A stretch of 12,425 bases of DNA from Thermoprotei archaeon (GTDB lineage: Archaea; Thermoproteota; Thermoprotei; Thermofilales; B15-G2), in contig QMRV01000057.1 in the NCBI GenBank assembly GCA_003649445.1, positions 1 to 12,425 of the forward strand. Reading direction: 5' to 3'. Numbering within the stretch: the stretch's first letter is position 1; every line of letters starts with the position of its first letter. The position numbers were made by a program, and so were the translations under genes. Shown here piece after piece: positions 276 through 12,425 of this stretch. The notes under the pieces are model-generated. The model was given only the letters and a program-made list of their open reading frames with translations. It did no database searches and was not told the origin of the DNA.

Positions 276-1481
276 ATGTGGAAATTAACTAGAGTGCACG
301 ATGTTGTAGAAAAAGTATCTAATCTGCTTAAAAGAGATTTCTGTATGGTACATTTGTCCCTCGAAGATGCTTTAAATAAAATATGTGGAGCAGACATTGT
401 CTCAAACAAGAATTTTCCTCCATACATGAAGGCAACCATGGATGGCTATGCTGTCAGAAGCGAGGATTGTGAAGAAGCTTCTTACACTAGTCCCGTTCTA
501 ATTAAGCTCCTTCCATATCACATATACTCTGGAGAAAAAATTTCAGTGAGGATAGGGTCTGGAGAAGGAGTGGCCATAGAGACCGGAGGCTTTCTCCCTG
601 AGGGAGCAGACTCTGTTGTTAGAGTAGAGGATACAGTTAGGAGAAATAGTGAGATAATGATCTACAGGAAAGTAAGCAAATATGAAAACGTCTCTCTTCC
701 CGGAGAGGAGTTAGCTAAAGGAGATGTAATCTTAAGGCGAGGAGACTTAATTAGACCTTGGCACTTAGCTGCCTTGGAGGCTCTAGGTTTTGATGCGGTT
801 CCCGTGCTATACATAAAGGCTTCAGTTATATGCACTGGAGACGAGTTTGTGCGAGGAAAAGCAGTGCCATTTACTAGAAGAATAGTTGAAGGATGGCTTT
901 ATGAACATGCTATCGATGTTAAAGAAATTCTCATAGCCGGAGATGACCCCCATGAAATAGCTAGTCTCTTAAAAGAGCTTCTCGAAGAAAACGATATAGT
1001 AGTCTTATGTGGCGGCAGCTCTCTCGGGTCAAAAGACTATAGCGTTAAAGCCGTCAAGAAACTAGGGCCTGAGGCACATATACATGGAATAGCTATTCAG
1101 CCGGGCAAAACTACAGCTCTTTCCTCTATTAAAGGAAAGCTAGTAGTAAACTTAAGCGGGTTGCCTGTAGCTGCTTTAGCTGGCTTAGAGCTAGTGGTTA
1201 AACCGATTTTAGAGAAGTGGATCGGCGTAAAGTATTTGCCTAGACCTACTGTTAGAGCCAAGCTTACGAAAAAGATTACTGTTAAGCTAGGTTTCAGAGG
1301 ATTTGCTAGAGTCAAAGTTTTTACTAAAAATGGTAGTCTTTATGCCGAGCCTCTAACTGTAGGGGGATCAGGTTCTCTTAGGAGCTTAGTTTTGGGAAAT
1401 GGTTTTGTTGTTGTTCCCGAGGATCTTGAGGGTTTTGATGAAGGAGAAGTAGTAGAGGTAGAACTGTATGGGAGAATATAG
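276..1481 (+). CDS. moeA: MoeA-family molybdopterin molybdenumtransferase, divergent paralogue 1
   Basis: This 401-residue protein has the full MoeA length and layout: N-terminal domains with ATMDGYAV (54-61, conserved Asp56) and IETGGFLPEGADSVV (101-115), a MoCF-type domain with CTGDE (186-190) and GGSSLGSKD (246-254, Asp254 in the place of the catalytic Asp), and a C-terminal beta-barrel from about 325. MoeA inserts molybdate or tungstate into adenylylated molybdopterin in the cytoplasm. Several active-site motifs are eroded: the usual GLPGNP is LSGLPV (293-298), the usual KPGKPT is QPGKTT (275-280), and the segment after the TGDE motif is short. The protein may therefore have a specialised or partner role next to the second MoeA. 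AAGGA at 266-270 before the ATG at 276 supports the start. The 3' end overlaps the next gene by 14 nt. Confidence 0.9.
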   Translation: MWKLTRVHDVVEKVSNLLKRDFCMVHLSLEDALNKICGADIVSNKNFPPYMKATMDGYAVRSEDCEEASYTSPVLIKLLPYHIYSGEKISVRIGSGEGVAIETGGFLPEGADSVVRVEDTVRRNSEIMIYRKVSKYENVSLPGEELAKGDVILRRGDLIRPWHLAALEALGFDAVPVLYIKASVICTGDEFVRGKAVPFTRRIVEGWLYEHAIDVKEILIAGDDPHEIASLLKELLEENDIVVLCGGSSLGSKDYSVKAVKKLGPEAHIHGIAIQPGKTTALSSIKGKLVVNLSGLPVAALAGLELVVKPILEKWIGVKYLPRPTVRAKLTKKITVKLGFRGFARVKVFTKNGSLYAEPLTVGGSGSLRSLVLGNGFVVVPEDLEGFDEGEVVEVELYGRI

Positions 1482-3438
1482 GAAAGTTTATAGAAAGCTA
1501 GCTAGTTTAGAAGAAGTTTTTAAAATACTTTATAAAATTGCTGAGACAAGAAAGCCTCGTGTAGAAGAAGTTCTTGTGGAAAAAGCACTAGGGAGAGTAC
1601 TTGCAGAAAATATTAGAGCAGTAAGCCCTGTTCCGCCCTTTAGCAGAGCACTAATGGACGGCTACGCTGTTTTTTCCTCAGACACTTCGCTTGCCTACGA
1701 GGATAGGCCTGTAAAACTAAAGCTTGTAAACGCAGTTAAAGTAGGTGAGGCGCCTCCTTTCGAACTCAAGAAGGGAGAGTGCGCTGAAATAGATACAGGG
1801 GCTCCTGTACCCTACCCCGCAGACGCTGTAATTCCAGTAGAATATACTCGAAAAACTTCTCATACAGAAGTAGAAATTTATCGAAGAGTAGCCAAAGGAG
1901 AGAATATAGATTTAGTTGGGTCAGACGTCGCTGAAGGAGAAGTAGTTGCTTGGAAAGGCGAAGTAGTAACCCCCCAGCTCATAGGAGTACTAATTTCGGC
2001 AGGAGTAACAAAAGTCAAAGTATACTCTAGGCCCCGTGTAACAGTAATACCTATAGGAAACGAATTAGCAGAGCCTGGAATAGAGCTCGAATACGGGAAA
2101 ATATATGACTCAAATTCATTTATGATAGCAGCTGCACTAAAGGAAGCTGGAGCAGAAGTAAAGCGATTTAAAATAGTTAAAGACAGCTATAGTGAAATAA
2201 AGAGCGCTGTAAACTCTGCTCTTAAAGACAGCGACATTGTAGTAACAATAGGAGGTACTTCAGCAGGCCTCGGAGACCTAACATACAGAGTTTTCTCAGA
2301 ATATAAGCCTGGAATAATAGTTCATGGATTGAAAGTTTCTCCAGGAAGGCCTACTGTTATAGCACTAGCAGGAGACAAAATACTTTTCGGGCTACCTGGA
2401 TTCCCTGTATCCTGCCTCAATATAGCTAAACTACTGTTGATTCCATTGATAAGAATACTTCAAGGAGCATCACCCATTACTATTGAGAAGGAAGTAGAAG
2501 CCGAGCTACTTTCCCCTATAAGAGGAGTAGTAGGCTTAATTAAGCTAGTACCAGCAGTAATCGCCGAAAAAGAAGGCAGAATATACGCCTACCCACTTAG
2601 CACACACAGCGGCGCTCTCTATACACTTTACGCCAGTGATGGCTTCATAGTAGTACCCGAGAACGCAGAGTACTTAGCTGAAGGAGCAAAAGTCTCTGTT
2701 AAACTATTTTCAGAAAGATTTAAGCAACGTGTGCTCTTCGCGGGAAGTCACTGTCCCTTAGCAATACATCTTCTCGAAAAACTCAAAGAAAAATATCCTG
2801 TAAAAGTACTCATCGCAGGTAGTCTTGCAGGCTTAAATTTAGTGGGCAAAAGAATAGCTGATATAGCAGGAGCTCATCTCTATGACCCGGCTTCGGGAGA
2901 ATACAATATTCCTTATGTAGAGAAATACGGGTACAGTAATCTCGTTGTAGTAAGAGGGTATTTAAGAGAACAAGGCTTCGTGTACTGCAAGAACTTGAAA
3001 GTAGAATCTTTCACAGATATCATTGAGAAAAACTTGAGATTCATAAATAGAAATAGGGGATCCGGTACAAGAGCTTTAATAGAGGAGCTCGTAAAAAAGG
3101 AAGCTGAAAAACACGATGTAAAAGTGCAGGAGTTTAAAAATAAGATAAGAGGATTTGAATATGAGGTGAAAACACATGAAGCCGTAGGATACCTCATTTC
3201 TCGAGGAGTAGCTGACGTAGGAGTAGCAATACGGTATATTGCAGAAAAATATAATCTAGGCTTCACAAAAATTTCAACAGAAATATATGATTTCATATTA
3301 AGTAAAGATATATTGAATAAAAAGATAGGTAGTGAACTTGTGCAAATGCTCGACCCAAGTAACTTAAACAAAATAATTGTTCACTTTCCAGGATACTCTG
3401 TTCACGAAGACTCAGGTAAGGTGATCTATGAATGCTAG
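1468..3438 (+). CDS. moeA: MoeA molybdopterin molybdenumtransferase fused to a C-terminal PBP-like (LysR-substrate-type) domain
   Basis: This 656-residue protein has two parts. Residues 1 to about 415 form a complete MoeA with RALMDGYAV (60-68), IDTGAPVPYPADAVI (108-122), IGNEL (196-200), GGTSAGLGD (262-270, catalytic-type Asp270) and GLPGFPVSC (308-316). Residues about 420-655 form a PBP-like domain marked by FINRNRGSGTR (525-535), the family's signature, followed by a helix and a segment predicted to close over a ligand. The fusion is a known archaeal architecture, and the added domain probably binds an oxyanion or a cofactor intermediate. That function is inferred from the fold family. The protein inserts Mo or W into molybdopterin. 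It starts inside moeA 1 (14-nt overlap), with GAGGTA about 8 nt before the ATG, and overlaps moaA by 7 nt. Asn of GLPGNP is Phe, and Lys of KPGKPT is Arg (PGRPT). Confidence 0.93.
   Translation: MGEYRKVYRKLASLEEVFKILYKIAETRKPRVEEVLVEKALGRVLAENIRAVSPVPPFSRALMDGYAVFSSDTSLAYEDRPVKLKLVNAVKVGEAPPFELKKGECAEIDTGAPVPYPADAVIPVEYTRKTSHTEVEIYRRVAKGENIDLVGSDVAEGEVVAWKGEVVTPQLIGVLISAGVTKVKVYSRPRVTVIPIGNELAEPGIELEYGKIYDSNSFMIAAALKEAGAEVKRFKIVKDSYSEIKSAVNSALKDSDIVVTIGGTSAGLGDLTYRVFSEYKPGIIVHGLKVSPGRPTVIALAGDKILFGLPGFPVSCLNIAKLLLIPLIRILQGASPITIEKEVEAELLSPIRGVVGLIKLVPAVIAEKEGRIYAYPLSTHSGALYTLYASDGFIVVPENAEYLAEGAKVSVKLFSERFKQRVLFAGSHCPLAIHLLEKLKEKYPVKVLIAGSLAGLNLVGKRIADIAGAHLYDPASGEYNIPYVEKYGYSNLVVVRGYLREQGFVYCKNLKVESFTDIIEKNLRFINRNRGSGTRALIEELVKKEAEKHDVKVQEFKNKIRGFEYEVKTHEAVGYLISRGVADVGVAIRYIAEKYNLGFTKISTEIYDFILSKDILNKKIGSELVQMLDPSNLNKIIVHFPGYSVHEDSGKVIYEC
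3418..3425 (+). promoter_or_regulatory. Ribosome binding site of moaA (AAGGTGAT)
   Basis: AAGGTGAT lies inside the end of moeA 2, six bases before the ATG at 3432. It matches the expected anti-Shine-Dalgarno end of archaeal 16S rRNA. It selects ATG 3432 over the out-of-frame ATG at 3428 and points to translational coupling with moeA 2. Confidence 0.75.
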
Positions 3439-4352
3439 TAGACAAGTATAATAGACCTTTAACTCACTTGAGAATCTCTGTTACAAGCAGATGCAACTAT
3501 ATGTGCTTTTTCTGTCATAGAGAAGGTGAAGGTAGGTCTAGTACAGAACTCTCTGTAGGAGAAATAGCTTTAGTATGCAGAGTAGCACGCAAGCTAGGAA
3601 TAAGGTTTTTCAAAATAACAGGAGGAGAGCCACTGCTAAGGAAAGACATAGAACATATTGTGAGGAACATAAGTCAGCTAGAGGGAGCTGAAGTCTCCTT
3701 AGTAACAAACGGCTATTTCTTAAAAGAGAAAGTAAAGAGTCTTATAGAAGCAGGACTCAGTAGAGCAAATATTAGTTTACATTCGTTAAACGAAGAAGTC
3801 TATAAAGCTATAACTAAAGTAAATGGGCTAAAAAAAGTTATCGAAGGAATAAAAAACGCGGTCGACTACGGTCTTAGAATAAAATTAAACACAGTTATAT
3901 TAAATGAATTAAATCACGAAGAATACGTTAAGATTATTGATTTTGCATCAAATATAGGAGCTGACGTGTGTTTTATCGAATTAATTCCACTAGGAATAGA
4001 TCCGAGAGAGTATCGTAAATACCATGTATCACTAAAATACATTAAAAATTACCTAAGAAAACATTGCGTTAAAGAATATACAAGAGAGCTTCAAAATAGA
4101 CCTGTATACGTATTTCCTACAGGAATTAAAGTAGAGCTTGTAGAGTCCTATGGGAACCCGAATTTCTGCTTGAAGTGTAGAAAAATTAGGTTAACTCATG
4201 ACGGTAAGCTTAAGCCCTGTTTAATGAGAAATGATAATACAGTGTCTTTAATTCATGTTATTAAATCCGATATGACTTTACGTGAAAAAGAAAAAGCTCT
4301 AGAAAGACTTTTCATTAAAGCAAATTCTCTGAGAGAGCCATTCTTTAAGTAA
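3432..4352 (+). CDS. moaA: GTP 3',8-cyclase MoaA (radical SAM)
   Basis: This 306-residue protein is MoaA. It rearranges GTP to 3',8-cyclo-GTP, the first step of pyranopterin cofactor synthesis. Residues 21-28 carry the radical-SAM cluster motif (Cys21, Cys25, Cys28, with F-F before the last Cys). GGEP at 64-67 is the SAM-binding motif. NISLHSL (113-119) is a core strand. The second, substrate-binding 4Fe-4S site is Cys246-x2-Cys249-x13-Cys263, followed by Leu, with KIRLTHDGKLKPCL typical of the family. The protein ends REPFFK and lacks the C-terminal Gly-Gly of bacterial and eukaryotic MoaA. I believe related archaeal forms end similarly, but I cannot check this. It starts within the end of moeA 2, so co-translation is likely, and moaC follows after 27 nt. 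Confidence 0.96.
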   Translation: MLVDKYNRPLTHLRISVTSRCNYMCFFCHREGEGRSSTELSVGEIALVCRVARKLGIRFFKITGGEPLLRKDIEHIVRNISQLEGAEVSLVTNGYFLKEKVKSLIEAGLSRANISLHSLNEEVYKAITKVNGLKKVIEGIKNAVDYGLRIKLNTVILNELNHEEYVKIIDFASNIGADVCFIELIPLGIDPREYRKYHVSLKYIKNYLRKHCVKEYTRELQNRPVYVFPTGIKVELVESYGNPNFCLKCRKIRLTHDGKLKPCLMRNDNTVSLIHVIKSDMTLREKEKALERLFIKANSLREPFFK

Positions 4353-4379
4353 CTCTAATTCTCTACTGTAAGTGATAAA

Positions 4380-4820
4380 ATGTCTGCATCAATGGTAGAT
4401 ATTTCGGCTAAAAAGGATGTTCTTAGAATAGCTGTAGCTGAAGGCAAAATAAAACTAAAAGAAAGCACTATAGAGAGAATTAAGAGTAGCAGTGTGCGTA
4501 AAGGAGATGTTTTTACAGTATCTAAAATAGCTGCAATTCAAGCATGTAAAAAGACTCCTGAAATACTCCCGCTATGCCACCAACTGCCTTTAACCCATAT
4601 AGAAGTAGACTTTACTCTGGAAAAAGACAGCGTTATTGCTAGAGCTACTGTTAAAGCATATGCTAAAACAGGAGTTGAAATGGAGGCTCTAGTAGCCGTT
4701 TCAACAGCCCTGCTCTGTATATGGGATATGGTTAAAGAATATGAGAAAGATGAAACCGGTCAATATCCCGAAACCAAAATAGAGTACATAAAAGTAGTTA
4801 AGAAAATTAAATTAAGTTAA
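4380..4820 (+). CDS. moaC: Cyclic pyranopterin monophosphate synthase MoaC
   Basis: This 146-residue protein is MoaC, which converts 3',8-cyclo-GTP from MoaA into cyclic pyranopterin monophosphate. Visible family motifs are MVDIS (5-9), KGDVF (41-45), LPLCHQLPLTHIEVDF (63-78, His67), KTGVEMEAL (96-104) and IWDMVK (114-119). Asp116 and Lys119 correspond to the catalytic Asp/Lys pair. The C terminus (KVVKKIKLS) lacks the GGKSG-like end of many bacterial MoaC proteins. The ATG at 4380 has AGTGAT four to nine bases upstream. An internal start at the MVDIS methionine is possible but lacks a good ribosome site. It is the last gene of the cofactor operon, and its TAA overlaps the end of a decayed gene on the other strand. 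Confidence 0.96.
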   Translation: MSASMVDISAKKDVLRIAVAEGKIKLKESTIERIKSSSVRKGDVFTVSKIAAIQACKKTPEILPLCHQLPLTHIEVDFTLEKDSVIARATVKAYAKTGVEMEALVAVSTALLCIWDMVKEYEKDETGQYPETKIEYIKVVKKIKLS

Positions 4821-5136
4821 TGGTGGCTATTTTCTATAGTCTTTTCCAGTAGCTGGAAGAGTAGAAAAATACTATCCTTTTTGGCCACAAGTATTAGCTT
4901 TTTATTGTCCGAGTCTTCAAATCCTATAGTAGCTATATCATCTTCTTCAATTATTACTCTATTAACTGAACGCTTGTTAAGCATCGATAGTATATCTGAA
5001 ACTATTTCATTGCCATCAATATGACCATACCAGAATACAGGTTTGTCTTTTTTCCAGTATAGTAAAGTATGCTTTCTTCTCCGACACTATCTATAACTTT
5101 TGTAAGTATTCGAATTAAATTATCATCCTTTTTCAT
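4817..5136 (-). pseudogene. Frameshifted small gene, function not recognised (~106 codons)
   Basis: On the minus strand a frame opens at ATG 5136-5134 with GAGGT eight bases upstream and reads MKKDDNLIRILTKVIDSV up to YYTGK. It then needs one extra base within the six-A run (plus-strand T-run 5048-5053) to continue as DKPVFWYGHIDGNEIVSDIL and on to IENSHH and a TAA at 4819-4817. The span is 320 nt, two more than a multiple of three, as expected for a one-base loss. The repaired protein is a soluble alpha/beta protein of about 106 residues ending in a hydrophobic helix (FLLFQLLEKTI). I do not recognise the family. It begins 8 nt after the Roadblock relic, so the two were probably one operon. 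A homopolymer sequencing error, or slippage producing the full protein, are the alternatives to decay. Confidence 0.7.
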
Positions 5137-5144
5137 ACTTACCT

Positions 5145-5537
5145 CTAAGACAGTATTTCTATACACTTATTCAAAGTCTTTTTAGTCAAAGTCAGTGCTA
5201 ATCCAATACTTGAGCCCGAGAATGATACTAGGAGACCGTATTCTTTACCTGATACTAAAACTATGTTTTGTTCTTTTCCGCTAAGAACTAAATAGTCGAC
5301 TTCACTTAACTAATTTCTTCTGCCAGTTTTGATACAACTCCAATGATAGTTGATGCTTGTGCAGAGGCATCAAGAGGCAACTATGTTCTCTGGATACACT
5401 AGTACTGGGAGACCGTCCTTAGTAAAGAGGACAGCTACTTTCCCGTCAATCTTTTTAAGAAGATTTTCAATTAATTTAGTTGGATTTTCTTTAACTGAAG
5501 TGCTTTCTATTTCTCTAAATCTAAATATACTTCTCAT
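5145..5537 (-). pseudogene. Decayed Roadblock/LC7-domain gene (two compensating indels)
   Basis: On the minus strand, ATG 5537-5535 follows GGGTGAT and reads MRSIFRFREIESTSVKENPT through DGLPVLVYPENIVAS, then meets TGA at 5372-5370. Removing one T there (plus-strand AA at 5372-5373) restores a frame reading DASAQASTIIGVVSKLAEEI. Adding one T near 5308-5309 then restores the original frame (SEVDYLVLSGKEQNIVLVSG and on to KCIEILS) up to TAG 5147-5145. The repaired product is 130 residues. DGLPV, an Ala/Ser-rich helix, a V-x-SGK strand, GLLVSF and an amphipathic C-terminal helix are the order seen in Roadblock/LC7 proteins. These often act as partners or regulators of small Ras-like GTPases. No such GTPase is visible here. 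Net length is a multiple of three, so the two lesions cancel except for about 20 residues and the internal stop. Confidence 0.75.
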
Positions 5538-5561
5538 GTATATCACCCTATGATATAATTT

Positions 5562-5845
5562 TTAATAACTCGGATAAATCTTTTCTATTTTATTTAATAG
5601 AAGTCTTTCGTAGAGCTCGGGGGGCATTTCAATGATATCTTGAAAAGCTCTGCGTCTAGCTATGAGATAGCTACTCGTAATAATGTAGAAGTTGCACATG
5701 AACATTTTCATTAAAGCCAATATGAGTCTTTGTTTTCTCTAAGCAGTTATTGTTCTTCTTCACTTAGGCCGAGGATTTTCTTCGCGTTTATAGCTACTTG
5801 CTTAATTTCGCTGAGAATTTCGCCCACGACCGTTCTTATTTGCAA
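5562..5845 (-). pseudogene. Decayed small gene upstream of the Roadblock relic, function not recognised (~94 codons)
   Basis: On the minus strand, a frame from TTG 5845 (or GTG 5827) reads QIRTVVGEILSEIKQVAINA and on to KKILGLSEEEQ, then hits TAA at 5749-5747 and continues LLRENKDSY. A one-base loss near 5716-5730 moves the reading to another frame, which gives ALMKMFMCNF and then SSYLIARRRAFQDIIEMPPE up to KIEKIYPSY and TAA 5564-5562. The C-terminal part is convincingly protein-like (ARRRAF, ELYERLLLNK). The repaired product would be an all-helical protein of about 94 residues. It ends 24 nt before the Roadblock relic on the same strand. The start codon and the middle section are uncertain, and I do not recognise the family. 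Confidence 0.5.
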
Positions 5846-7493: not shown

Positions 7494-7690
7494 TTTCGGG
7501 TAATGTAAGATTCTTTCCTCTGAAATGCAGTTATAAACTTAACGATAGAGTATTTAAGCTCAGAGTAATTAGGTTTTATGGAAATGCTGAAAATACTGCT
7601 TACTTAATATAATGTATAAAAGAAATTTACATTAATTAGTGTTTTAAAAGCCTAAAGACTTTATTTTAGCAATCGAACCTTTAGCGAAAC

Positions 7691-7700
7691 CTATATATAA
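7691..7700 (+). promoter_or_regulatory. TATA box of the FtsZ-paralogue operon
   Basis: CTATATATAA is preceded by the purine-rich GCGAAA (7684-7689), a possible BRE. Its centre is about 33 nt before the ATG at 7729, which gives a leader of only about 5-10 nt. It is the only clear promoter visible for the seven genes downstream. Confidence 0.65.
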
Positions 7701-7728
7701 TTTACGCGTGAATAAATAGCGAGTATAT

Positions 7729-8718
7729 ATGATGAGACCTATACGTAGTGACTTAGAAGAAGTAGTGACCAAGATTGTTGTAGTAGGTGTTGGCGATTGT
7801 GGCTGCAACACTATAACGAATCTATTCGAGAGAAATGTTGAAGCAAAGCTAATCGCTGTAAACACTGATGTAAATTCTCTCAATGTAACTAAGGCTCACC
7901 AATTAATTCAAATTGGGGAAAATACTACTAGAGGAAGAGGAACAGGCGGCGATATATCTAAGGGAAGAAAGGCTGCTGAAGAAGACATCGACAAAGTGCT
8001 TGAAGCGATAGGAAAGCCTGATTTTCTGATGATTACATGTGGTTTCGGAGGAGGAACAGGCTCCGGAGCCACACCTTATATCTTGGCTCAACTGAGAGAC
8101 GAGTATCCTGACTTACTAATGGGTGCTGTAGTATCAATACCCTTTAGATACGAGGGCATAGAGAGGCTCAAGAATACGCAAATGGGCTTGAGGGACACTC
8201 TTGATGTAGCAGACTTTGTTATAGTGAACCTAAACGACATTCTACTTGAGCGCTATGGCACACTGCCTCTCCAGGAAAGCTTTAGAATGATGGACGCTAT
8301 TCTCGCAAATACTATTGAAAGCATAGTAGACATGCTTCAGCCTAAAGGAGCGCAGCTTAGAGTAGATTTTGCTGACTTAGTTACACTACTTAGAAGAGCT
8401 GGAGTAAGCTTTGTGGGACACGGACGCCACAGGTCCATAAGAAAGGCCGTCGAAAAAGCTATTGAGTCAAAGCTCCTTGATGCAGAATTAAGCTCAGCAA
8501 AAGGAGCTTTAGTCTACGTGAGCGCTCCTCCCGGAGTTAGTTTAAGGCAGGCAGCTGAAGCTCCTAGAATAGTCAGCGACAAATACGGTGTTGAGAGAGT
8601 AATATGGGGTTTAAAAGTAAACCCCAAGCTCAGAGAAAGCCATGTGATGATTATTGCGAGTGGTGTTAGATCTAGAATAATTTCGGATATTGTGGGTGTT
8701 AGTGAAGCTGTAGGGTGA
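7729..8718 (+). CDS. FtsZ-family GTPase, paralogue 1 (both T7 aspartates kept, altered T1 loop)
   Basis: This 329-residue protein covers both FtsZ domains. GTP-binding elements are T1 GVGDCGCN (20-27), T3 NTD (45-47), tubulin signature GGGTGSG (107-113), PF-x2-EG-x2-R (138-146) and T6 NLND (167-170). The T7 loop reads RVDFAD (211-216). Both catalytic-type aspartates (213 and 216, E. coli Asp209 and Asp212) are present, but the preceding conserved Asn is Arg211. In T1 a conserved glycine is Asp23. The protein ends soon after the C-terminal domain (IIASGVRS), with no long linker or conserved tail peptide. FtsZ forms cytoskeletal filaments for division, and that role is inferred here. It is the first gene of the operon. 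The start is the first of two ATGs (7729 or 7732), with a near-leaderless transcript. Confidence 0.92.
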   Translation: MMRPIRSDLEEVVTKIVVVGVGDCGCNTITNLFERNVEAKLIAVNTDVNSLNVTKAHQLIQIGENTTRGRGTGGDISKGRKAAEEDIDKVLEAIGKPDFLMITCGFGGGTGSGATPYILAQLRDEYPDLLMGAVVSIPFRYEGIERLKNTQMGLRDTLDVADFVIVNLNDILLERYGTLPLQESFRMMDAILANTIESIVDMLQPKGAQLRVDFADLVTLLRRAGVSFVGHGRHRSIRKAVEKAIESKLLDAELSSAKGALVYVSAPPGVSLRQAAEAPRIVSDKYGVERVIWGLKVNPKLRESHVMIIASGVRSRIISDIVGVSEAVG

Positions 8719-8719
8719 T
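8713..8719 (+). promoter_or_regulatory. Ribosome binding site containing the paralogue 1 stop codon
   Basis: GGGTGAT, five bases before the ATG at 8725, includes the TGA stop of paralogue 1 (8716-8718). The same arrangement recurs at 9742-9748 and 10042-10048. Confidence 0.75.
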
Positions 8720-8724
8720 AGGTT

Positions 8725-9747
8725 ATGTCATATAGGGTTAGGTTACGTGAGCAGTTAAGGTATTTGGCCCAAAAAGAGCGCGAAGCAGCCGTTAAAATAA
8801 ATATTGTTGGTGTAGGAGGCTGCGGAAACAACGCTATCAACAATCTATCTAGGCTCCGTCTGCCCGCTAAGCTAATAGCCATGAACACAGACTCTGCTGT
8901 TCTGCGTAGAACAAGATGTGATGTAAGAGTTCTTCTAGGAGGACTTTCGGCTGAAGCCAGAGGAGCTAGAGGTGTACCTGAGTTAGGAGCACAAGCAATG
9001 GAAGAGAGTATTGAAGAAGCAATAGGAGCTATTGACGAAAACGTCGATGTAGTCATAGGTATAGCAGGCTTAGGCGGAGGAACAGGAACAGGAGGTCTAC
9101 CAGTACTTTTCAGAGAGCTCAGAACAAGAAGACCTAATGCTCTGAGAATAGCTGTAGTAACTCTACCCTTTAAAGAAGAAGGTGAAGAAAGAATAAGAAA
9201 TGCTCAAATAGGTCTCAGAGAACTCATGGATGTTTCAGATGCAATAATAGTTAACGCAAACGACGTACTAGCAGAAAGACTGAGGGGAGTAAGCATGGCT
9301 TATGCATTCAAAGAAATGGACAAGAGAATTGCCAGAATAGTAGAGGCGCTAGTAAGAATGCAATCACCCATGATAGGCCCAGGAGTAATCAACGTAGACT
9401 TCTCTAATGTACAGAGATTAATGCAGAACTCAGGATTCTGCTTCGTCGGAGTAGGTGACGGACCCAGAATATACGATGCCTACATAAGAGCTCTCTCCGA
9501 CGACTACGCTAGGTCTAGGCTCGAGGGAGCTCGAGGAGCAATACTCATGTTTGAGGGCAGAGAAACATTGCTGGACATGACTCAAATAAGAAACACTACT
9601 AGACAGTTCTCTGAGAGATATGCTATACCTACAGTATTCATGGGACTAAGGCCCACGTGGGATATCGTTGACGTGAGAGTATCTGTTTTTGTAACATCAG
9701 TTAAATGTGATTATGTAGAAGAATTTATGTCTGGGTTTACCGGGTGA
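8725..9747 (+). CDS. FtsZ-family GTPase, paralogue 2 (T7 Asp212-equivalent replaced by Asn)
   Basis: This 340-residue protein has a 22-residue basic N-terminal helix (MSYRVRLREQLRYLAQKERE) and then a full FtsZ core: T1 GVGGCGNN (29-36), T3 NTD (54-56), GGGTGTG (117-123), PF-x2-EG-x2-R (148-156) and T6 NAND (177-180). T7 reads NVDFSN (223-228). Asn223 and Asp225 are kept, but the position of E. coli Asp212 is Asn228. In FtsZ this loop completes the GTPase site of the neighbouring subunit, so this copy probably binds GTP but stimulates hydrolysis poorly. It ends at SGFTG, without a long C-terminal tail. Spacing is 6 nt on each side, with the ribosome site GGGTGAT spanning the previous stop. It is most like paralogue 3 around T7 (DFSNV, FVGVG). 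Confidence 0.92.
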   Translation: MSYRVRLREQLRYLAQKEREAAVKINIVGVGGCGNNAINNLSRLRLPAKLIAMNTDSAVLRRTRCDVRVLLGGLSAEARGARGVPELGAQAMEESIEEAIGAIDENVDVVIGIAGLGGGTGTGGLPVLFRELRTRRPNALRIAVVTLPFKEEGEERIRNAQIGLRELMDVSDAIIVNANDVLAERLRGVSMAYAFKEMDKRIARIVEALVRMQSPMIGPGVINVDFSNVQRLMQNSGFCFVGVGDGPRIYDAYIRALSDDYARSRLEGARGAILMFEGRETLLDMTQIRNTTRQFSERYAIPTVFMGLRPTWDIVDVRVSVFVTSVKCDYVEEFMSGFTG

Positions 9748-9748
9748 T
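9742..9748 (+). promoter_or_regulatory. Ribosome binding site containing the paralogue 2 stop codon
   Basis: GGGTGAT includes the TGA at 9745-9747 and lies five bases before the ATG at 9754 of the 97-residue protein gene. Confidence 0.75.
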
Positions 9749-9753
9749 AGAAT

Positions 9754-10047
9754 ATGCTGTTTGGTAGAAAGAAGAAAGAGGAAGAGGAAAAACAAAAGCC
9801 GGCTCCTCAGTCTGCTGCCCCCAGCCCACTCGACTTAGCTTTAAAGTTCCTTGAAGAAGAGAGCGGCGAAGTAGACATAGCGTGGTACTGTGAGCTCGAA
9901 AAAATGCCTTTTGAGCCACCAGTAGTAAAGTTCGTTGAATGGGTTGAAGCAAAAGGCCACGGAGGTCTATACTCTAGAGAACAGCTGATAGATGCTCTCA
10001 ATAGAGCATTCAGAATGAAGATTGATGAAAGACGCGGCAGAAGGTGA
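9754..10047 (+). CDS. 97-residue protein between FtsZ paralogues, family not recognised
   Basis: I do not recognise this protein. It starts with a short hydrophobic-basic end (MLFGRKKK), an acidic/lysine run (to about residue 15) and a Pro/Ala/Ser linker (16-25). A compact domain follows (26-90): helix LDLALKFLEEE, then VDIAWYCELEKMPFEPP, a helix (VVKFVEWVEAKG), HGGLYSREQLIDALNRAF, and a basic tail (DERRGRR). Two Trp, Tyr and the PFEPP turn suggest a folded binding module. No transmembrane segment or signal peptide is seen. It is translationally linked on both sides: its ribosome site spans the stop of paralogue 2, and its own TGA lies in the ribosome site of paralogue 3. A role as partner or membrane adaptor of the FtsZ proteins is inference from position only. 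It lacks the recognisable SepF pattern. Confidence 0.85.
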   Translation: MLFGRKKKEEEEKQKPAPQSAAPSPLDLALKFLEEESGEVDIAWYCELEKMPFEPPVVKFVEWVEAKGHGGLYSREQLIDALNRAFRMKIDERRGRR

Positions 10048-10048
10048 T
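10042..10048 (+). promoter_or_regulatory. Ribosome binding site deciding the start of FtsZ paralogue 3
   Basis: AGGTGAT lies four bases before the ATG at 10053 and contains the previous gene's TGA (10045-10047). A GTG at 10044 in the same frame lies inside this site and has no ribosome site of its own, so ATG 10053 is preferred. Confidence 0.75.
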
Positions 10049-10052
10049 ATCT

Positions 10053-11060
10053 ATGGCGCGTAGAATACTAGAGGCACAGAGACTAGCAGAAGTAGTTTCT
10101 AAAAGAGCAGTGCTCAAAATAGCTGTCATTGGTATAGGAGGATGTGGATGTAACACTATTTCTAACCTTGAAAGAGCGGGAATAGACGTACCCACTGTCG
10201 CCGTAAACACGGATGCTGCAGTACTCTATAAGACTAAAGCTAAGTACCGTGTATTGATTGGTGAGACTGTTACTCGTGGTCGTGGTAGTGCTGGTAGTCC
10301 TGCTCTTGGTAGAGAGATAATGAGCCGCGAAGCTGAAAGAGTATTAGCTAATGTAAGAGATGCTGAGCTGTATATTCTTACTGCTGGTCTCGGCGGCGGT
10401 ACAGGAACAGGAGGAATACTAGCACTAGCAGAATACATAAAAGAAAACATGGGAGATAAGCTCGTCTGGGCAGTAGTAACAACTCCCTTCTCCTCAGAAG
10501 GAGCAGAGAGGGTAAGAAACGCTAAAGTAGCTCTGGCAGAGCTACTCGATTTAGCAGACGTAATTCTAGTAAACTTCAACGACATATTAAAGCAGAAAAT
10601 GGGTTCACGAAGCCTGCAGCAGGCATTTAGGGAAATGGACAAGCATTTAGTGACAGTAATAACTGCGCTGACAAGCCTACAGTACACTGAACCGACACCA
10701 GGACTAGTTAACATAGACTTCTCGAATGTAGAGAGGCTTACTAGAAGAAGCGGGCTAGGGTTCGTAGGTGTAGGTCAGGGATCAAGATTATTTTCAGCGT
10801 TTGAAAACGCTTTAGAGCAAAACTATTGTGAAGCCGACTTAACTGGAGCAAAGGGAGCTGTAATATACATGGAGGGAACACAGGCAATGCTAAAGACGAG
10901 CGAAGTAGAGGAGATGACAAGTATACTCGCAACTAAATACGGCATATCAACTATATTCTGGGGAGTCAGATATAACTGGAAACTCTATAACCCGAGAGTA
11001 ATGCTAATGGCTGCAGGGGTAAAGTCTCCACTAGTGGATCAATACCTTGAGGTGAAGTAA
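10053..11060 (+). CDS. FtsZ-family GTPase, paralogue 3 (T7 Asp212-equivalent replaced by Asn)
   Basis: Counting from ATG 10053 this is 335 residues. After a 19-residue charged helix come T1 GIGGCGCN (27-34), T3 NTD (52-54), GGGTGTG (114-120), PF-x2-EG-x2-R (145-153) and T6 NFND (174-177). T7 is NIDFSN (220-225): Asn220 and Asp222 are kept, and the second aspartate is Asn225. The C-terminal domain (GAKGAVIYMEG through MLMAAGVKS) is complete, and the protein stops at EVK. Filament formation with the neighbouring copies is inferred from the family and the operon. Codons 10246-10314 use CGT, GGT and ACT far more than the AGA/GGA/ACA style around them, as if patched from a differently biased copy. 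The PRC-barrel gene follows after 4 nt. Confidence 0.92.
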   Translation: MARRILEAQRLAEVVSKRAVLKIAVIGIGGCGCNTISNLERAGIDVPTVAVNTDAAVLYKTKAKYRVLIGETVTRGRGSAGSPALGREIMSREAERVLANVRDAELYILTAGLGGGTGTGGILALAEYIKENMGDKLVWAVVTTPFSSEGAERVRNAKVALAELLDLADVILVNFNDILKQKMGSRSLQQAFREMDKHLVTVITALTSLQYTEPTPGLVNIDFSNVERLTRRSGLGFVGVGQGSRLFSAFENALEQNYCEADLTGAKGAVIYMEGTQAMLKTSEVEEMTSILATKYGISTIFWGVRYNWKLYNPRVMLMAAGVKSPLVDQYLEVK

Positions 11061-11064
11061 ATAA

Positions 11065-11304
11065 ATGAACAGAAAAATATCGGATAAAGAAATAATAGGA
11101 AGACAAGTAATAGACGTAAACGGTAAAGTAGTAGGAGTAGTTGAAAGTATAGTAATTTCAGAAAAAGCCGCCGAAGGTGTAGAGCTAGTCATTAAAAAGA
11201 TAGAAAAAATAGGGCCGAGAACAAAAGAAACTAAAATTAATATACCTTTTTCATATGTATTAAGAGTAGGAGATGTAATACTGCTTAGTAAGCCTGTAGA
11301 ATAA
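11065..11304 (+). CDS. PRC-barrel domain protein (79 residues)
   Basis: The protein is a single PRC-barrel domain. KISDKEIIGRQVIDVNGK (4-21), VVGVVESIVIS, a middle strand ELVIKKI, then INIPFSYVLRVGDVILLSK near the end follow the family's order (G-x-x-V-x-D-x-x-G-K-x-x-G, and the closing GDVILL). The length is typical of stand-alone archaeal members. There is no membrane segment. PRC-barrel proteins CdpB1 and CdpB2 of haloarchaea act in the FtsZ division machinery by linking SepF-type anchors, so placement between two FtsZ genes suggests a similar structural role. That is inference; PRC-barrels also have unrelated roles. GAGGTGA (11049-11055) sits at the end of paralogue 3, nine bases before the ATG. 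Paralogue 4 follows after 10 nt. Confidence 0.9.
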   Translation: MNRKISDKEIIGRQVIDVNGKVVGVVESIVISEKAAEGVELVIKKIEKIGPRTKETKINIPFSYVLRVGDVILLSKPVE

Positions 11305-11314
11305 TGGTGAAAAA

Positions 11315-12271
11315 ATGTCAGCCGAACTTAAAATATATGTTGTAGGCATAGGGGGGAGGGGTCTCAATGCTCTCACTGCTGTCAAGAGAAGAGGAATTCC
11401 TGTAAAAACTATTGGAGTAGACACTGATTCTTCAGCGCTTTCAATAGCTAGATGCGACGACAAACTCTTAATAGGAGAAGACATTACTAAAGGCAGGTCT
11501 ACCGCCGGCGCAATGGAGTTAGGCAGAAAAGCCATGGAAGTTCAAGCCTATAAAATAGTAGAAAAAGTAGCCGATGGAGAAGTAGTAGTTATCATTTCTG
11601 GCTTAGGTGGAGGAACAGGTAGCGGAGGACATCCTGCCTTAGTAGAAAAAATCAAGGAGAGTTATCCCGACAAACTAGTAATATCTTTTGTAACAATACC
11701 GTTTAAAACAGAAAGTAGTAACCGAATAAACAATGCTAAAATGGCTTTATCTACTATAGTAGACTTATCTGATGTAACCGTAGTACACTTTAATGACAAA
11801 TTAAAAGAGAAGCATCCTACACTACCTCTAGTAAGAGCTTATAGAATACTTGATAATAAAATAGAAGCCAGCCTCCAGGCAATACTGGGCTTACAGTCAA
11901 TAAAGCCTATACCTGGAGTAATGAACGTAGACTTTAGTTCATTTAAAGCAATAGCTATGAAGTCAGGCTTAGGACTAATAAATGTCAAAGAAGCAGCAGG
12001 AGTGCTAGAAGCATTCAAGGAGGCTATGAAAGAAGAGTTCTGTGATATTGATATAACTGGAAGTAAAGGAGCAGTAGTGTACATTGAAGGCACTGAAACA
12101 GCTCTGCAGACGTCAGATATATACGATATCTCAGGGACTCTTACATCCACATACAATATTCAAGTAGTCTACTTCGGATTTAAGCCAAGCTGGGAGCTAA
12201 CACAGCCTAGAGTAGCGTTCATAGCAACTGGGGTAAAATCAGAATCTGTTAGAAAGTTCTTAGAGGAGTGA
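11315..12271 (+). CDS. FtsZ-family GTPase, paralogue 4 (most divergent complete copy)
   Basis: This is a 318-residue FtsZ core with almost no N-terminal extension: T1 GIGGRGLN (11-18), T3 DTD (36-38, where Asn is usual), GGGTGSG (98-104), PF at 129-130 with Glu133 and Arg137 at canonical spacing but EG changed to ES, and T6 HFND (158-161). T7 reads NVDFSS (204-209), so the second aspartate position is Ser209. After it the usual glycine-rich G-x-G following the T7 helix is replaced by NVKEA. The C-terminal domain (GSKGAVVYIEG through IATGVKS) is intact, and the protein ends RKFLEE. It probably binds GTP but is unlikely to stimulate hydrolysis in a neighbour through T7. GGTGA four bases before the ATG is a good ribosome site. 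The TGA is four bases from paralogue 5. Confidence 0.9.
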   Translation: MSAELKIYVVGIGGRGLNALTAVKRRGIPVKTIGVDTDSSALSIARCDDKLLIGEDITKGRSTAGAMELGRKAMEVQAYKIVEKVADGEVVVIISGLGGGTGSGGHPALVEKIKESYPDKLVISFVTIPFKTESSNRINNAKMALSTIVDLSDVTVVHFNDKLKEKHPTLPLVRAYRILDNKIEASLQAILGLQSIKPIPGVMNVDFSSFKAIAMKSGLGLINVKEAAGVLEAFKEAMKEEFCDIDITGSKGAVVYIEGTETALQTSDIYDISGTLTSTYNIQVVYFGFKPSWELTQPRVAFIATGVKSESVRKFLEE

Positions 12272-12275
12272 GACG

Positions 12276-12425
12276 ATGGGAGAAATACCCAAACCGAGTA
12301 TTGTTGTTGTCGGTGTTGGTGGTTGTGGTTGTAATACTTTGAATAGGTTGTATGAGGTTGGTGCTACTGAAGATGTTTTAGCTGTTGCTGTTCATACTGA
12401 GGCTGTTCACTTACAGTCAGTTAAA
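12276..12425 (+). CDS. FtsZ-family GTPase, paralogue 5, N-terminal part (cut by window end)
   Basis: Fifty codons are visible from ATG 12276, with GGAG at 12265-12268. The protein begins MGEIPKPSIVVVGVGGCGCN, so T1 (GVGGCGCN) is canonical. It continues through a helix to AVAVHTEAVHL, where the T3 loop NTD is HTE. The protein runs off the window, so T4-T7 cannot be seen. Codons end strongly in T (GTT, GGT, GCT), unlike paralogues 2 and 4. Same-strand spacing of 4 nt continues the operon. Confidence 0.88.
   Translation, partial: MGEIPKPSIVVVGVGGCGCNTLNRLYEVGATEDVLAVAVHTEAVHLQSVK

Follow-up and report, generated by a model that had tools for sequence, protein, structure and literature searches.

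What might an archaeon do with five versions of FtsZ encoded side by side? The question is raised by a stretch of DNA from a Thermoprotei archaeon (contig QMRV01000057.1; 12,425 nt, referred to as the window, in which all positions below are counted), where one gene cluster holds five FtsZ versions in a tight operon; the cluster is also found in distant relatives. As the initial annotation had described, four complete FtsZ paralogues and the start of a fifth lie head-to-tail with two small genes, and the array proteins pass the cut-off of PF00091, the Tubulin/FtsZ GTPase domain. All array carriers found, including the B15_G2 genome (G001), G031 and G161, are metagenome-assembled genomes (MAGs). 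We consider it evenly balanced whether the array FtsZs build one mixed filament, somewhat like alpha- and beta-tubulin, as their sequences would suggest.

Catalytic loops and family membership

The GTP-binding T4 motif GGGTG[ST]G was present in the array proteins, while the T7 motif NxDxx[D/E] was intact in none of the 44 array rows of the alignment, compared with all 25 canonical rows. The alignment columns were matched by us, rather than by PMC8456036, to the E. coli T7 residues N207, D209 and D212 that are named in that paper. Part of the T7 loop is, on this alignment, lost in every FtsZ version of the array, and the paralogues carry unequal T7 catalytic residues. Several FtsZ copies of a further genome (G365), which lie on five separate contigs (L077–L081), keep the N-D-D motif by eye wherever the T7 loop is visible, a case of paralogues without array or T7 loss.

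The T7 block is followed by 103–110 residues in 43 of the 44 array rows and by 55 in a truncated G161 row, against 118–193 in the 25 canonical rows. The C-terminal linker and anchor peptide are absent after the array core, the shortest canonical rows being longer by only about 8 residues, and the window proteins (318–340 aa) end with the FtsZ core. Hydrophobic moments of their N-termini, calculated as a check for an amphipathic membrane helix, were 0.42–0.50. None of the array proteins reached the cut-off (295.2) of the NCBIfam ftsZ equivalog TIGR00065. A tree, as proposed in the initial annotation, placed them outside the canonical FtsZ clade, in their own clade with 45 other rows (support 99/99); its canonical rows were chosen from matches to array queries and it held no CetZ row. 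To judge from their sequences, the array proteins belong to the FtsZ superfamily by every fold test and fall outside canonical FtsZ by four tests.

Conservation, layout and setting of the array

A comparison of gene order, likewise suggested beforehand, found the order kept across three lineages; between independent assemblies, synonymous differences were close to saturation and dN was low. The five FtsZ versions of the cluster are, on these comparisons, ancient. In a phylum sample of 398 genomes, with at most five candidates scored per genome, PF00091/FtsZ profile matches were obtained in 171, and among the matches listed only G001, G031 and G161 had at least three on one contig within 5 kb. 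Within the class of G001, 4 of 81 genomes gave PF00091 matches, namely G001 and G031 as well as G010 and G013, the last two with one weak match each (frame lengths 901 and 584 aa); genes of FtsZ size were found in two of the 81, as were arrays among the matches listed.

No FtsZ outside the array was found in G001 or G031, and the array is therefore a natural division candidate in both. SepF gave no matches in these two MAGs and two over cut-off in G161 (completeness unstated in each case); since G161 has canonical FtsZ and SepF besides the array, the three can coexist. Matches to Snf7 stayed below cut-off in all three genomes (best 20.8 bits in G161, two of 13–14 bits in long frames in G031, none in G001), a weak test given that this model also fell below its cut-off in the Sulfolobus control. 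CdvA reached 30.7 bits in G031 (cut-off 30) and at best 26.9 in G161, with no match in G001; unrelated controls also gave weak matches. One actin-family member was found in each of the three genomes.

The array lies entirely on the forward strand. An annotated feature (7684–7700) stands 5' of the first FtsZ-family gene (7729–8718; assigned by PF00091 at 127.5 bits, clade and T7 loop; dN/dS, the ratio of non-synonymous to synonymous change, 0.019), which contains another at 8359–8376. The second FtsZ-family gene (8725–9747; 116.2 bits; P0128, 51% identity; dN/dS 0.020) contains the feature at 9391–9408. It is followed by a small gene (9754–10047), the third FtsZ-family gene (10053–11060; 110.9 bits; dN/dS 0.029; start choice examined) with a feature at 10710–10727, a PRC-barrel gene (11065–11304), the fourth FtsZ-family gene (11315–12271) with a feature at 11924–11941, and the start of the fifth (12276–12425), which continues in the B15_G2 contig C29 and is complete in G031 and G161. 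The complete set would be expressible from about 5.5 kb.

The small gene at 9754–10047 encodes 97 aa, with a disordered basic N-terminus followed by a four-helix domain (AlphaFold2 mean predicted local distance difference test score 83.6). Homologues were found; the initial annotation had left it unrecognised, and it indeed matched no Pfam or NCBIfam family. Its best match among PDB sequences had an E value of 0.39, and none of the PDB folds matched at E ≤ 0.001, though the weakness of a match does not establish that a fold is new. As a family with no recognised relative, it is a candidate filament partner. The 79-aa PRC-barrel protein (PF05239, 37.2 bits, cut-off 21.2; dN/dS 0.058; nearest PDB sequence 8qzo, E 3.1e-5) is encoded in the window and B15_G2 arrays. 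Its membership of the conserved array core was rejected, as the gene is absent from the G031 and G161 arrays; G001 has two PRC matches, of which one lies in the array, and G031 has none, whereas the four of G161 all lie outside the contig that carries its array.

The array has molybdenum-cofactor genes and pyruvate kinase as neighbours in the window. The former (276–4820) encode MoeA, MoeA with a PBP-like domain, MoaA and MoaC. Short frames at 4817–5550 on the reverse strand look by eye like portions of two genes which L001 has in intact form (5078–5832; 120 aa and 138 aa, the second with weak similarity to Roadblock/LC7 at 15.8 bits, below the cut-off of 23); on this comparison the array's neighbours look decayed and the array itself intact. 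The window search found no RNA families or tRNAs.

A proposed mixed filament and its alternatives

Bacterial FtsZ rings are described as being made of a single FtsZ (PMC8142252). The T7 loop of a single bacterial FtsZ serves every interface; in mixed protofilaments of the array proteins, the T7 loop of each subunit would decide hydrolysis of the adjacent GTP. A conserved operon with a full catalytic loop in no subunit would offer a natural experiment for studying how unequal subunits arise among polymer proteins. The initial annotation had proposed a multi-subunit division or cytoskeletal machine with dedicated partners; the conserved tight operon and the unequal T7 loops speak for it, while the PRC-barrel protein drops out as a core partner. 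Only tentatively do we go further, to an FtsZ cytoskeleton that evolved independently of tubulin. Its filament would comprise four or more specialised subunits that divide the GTPase site among them, would have a small membrane adaptor of its own, and might form the division ring in archaea that have neither canonical FtsZ–SepF nor ESCRT-III. According to one review, Thermoproteales seem to be without both FtsZ and ESCRT-III (PMC7613921), and the array is a concrete candidate machine for archaea with neither known division system. A simple parallel with paired tubulins is weakened by BtubA/B, which co-assemble and each have an activating T7 loop, so that co-assembly does not require T7 loss. 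Crenactin-type actins, also present in G001 and G031, are competing candidates for the division role.

Each paralogue could alternatively form its own co-expressed homopolymer with a job of its own (shape, division or segregation), the T7 changes merely slowing turnover. We regard this as rather unlikely, given the tight operon with its order conserved in three lineages and the T7 loss in every lineage, which would be odd for stand-alone GTPases.

It appears less probable still that the filament serves internal membranes or cell shape rather than division, or is a transferred plasmid- or virus-like partition cassette. The patchy spread described above, the canonical FtsZ and SepF of G161 and an identical 123-nt stretch common to two B15_G2 array loci would fit such a role, but the array's metabolic neighbours, the lack of any other FtsZ found in G001 and G031 and the fit of their array contigs to their own genome composition argue against it.

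An assembly or binning artefact is extremely improbable and, for G001 and G031, was rejected on composition: the carriers are all MAGs, G161 contig C37 correlates 0.50 with its own genome and 0.53 and 0.52 with two others, and G001 contig C6 is mixed over the 6 kb at its array end (0.57 with G001, 0.59 with G003), but the rest of C6 (0.67), C50 (0.62) and C29 (0.65) fall within the range of G001 (0.54–0.74), the G031 flank (0.65) falls within its own (0.62–0.71), and independent assemblies share the diverged array in the same order.

Comparison with known systems

Divergent FtsZ proteins of Crenarchaeota, Korarchaeia and Bathyarchaeia have already been published, with their role left undetermined there (PMC9871819, PMC9723716); the operon, the T7 split and the small partner are undescribed in the available portions of both papers. 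We found no account of these three features in the partly available literature, where the Korarchaeum genome, a 2010 archaeal-division review or work on Haloferax FtsZ1/FtsZ2 may hold an earlier one. Compared with canonical archaeal FtsZ1/FtsZ2 and SepF, the array forms a separate clade with no intact T7 loop, no C-terminal tail and a new small gene alongside, and its carriers G001 and G031 yielded no SepF. The same SepF result, together with the variable presence of the PRC-barrel gene in arrays, sets the array apart from the Haloferax PRC-barrel division proteins. FtsZl1 likewise belongs to the FtsZ superfamily and not to the canonical family, but is about 1000 aa long with a coiled coil and a helical C-terminus (PMC2875224), far from the size of the window proteins. 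An FtsZl1-like layout was seen in a 977-aa protein on G001 contig C32 (L034 195–3128, reverse strand), which combines a Tubulin_2 domain (59 bits) with a long remainder that is apparently coiled coil.

Plant chloroplast FtsZ1/FtsZ2 are also FtsZ paralogues, which co-assemble and of which one is without the C-terminal peptide (PMC8142252), although in AtFtsZ1 the T7 Asp is retained (D275, the residue that this study mutated). BtubA/BtubB are, like the array proteins, prokaryotic paralogues encoded in operons, and these two co-assemble; they differ in being tubulins that keep activating T7 loops in both (PMC3232192). Alpha/beta-tubulin and Asgard AtubA/AtubB are likewise paralogues with unequal T7 loops, of which AtubAB is described as a stable operon-encoded heterodimer with one interface predicted inactive (PMC13394414). 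The authors of that study suggest a convergent origin of unequal subunits in tubulins, AtubAB having converged with alpha/beta-tubulin (PMC13394414). In the array, co-assembly is predicted only, the core is that of FtsZ rather than tubulin, the paralogues number four or five rather than two, and the loop is changed in every one of them.
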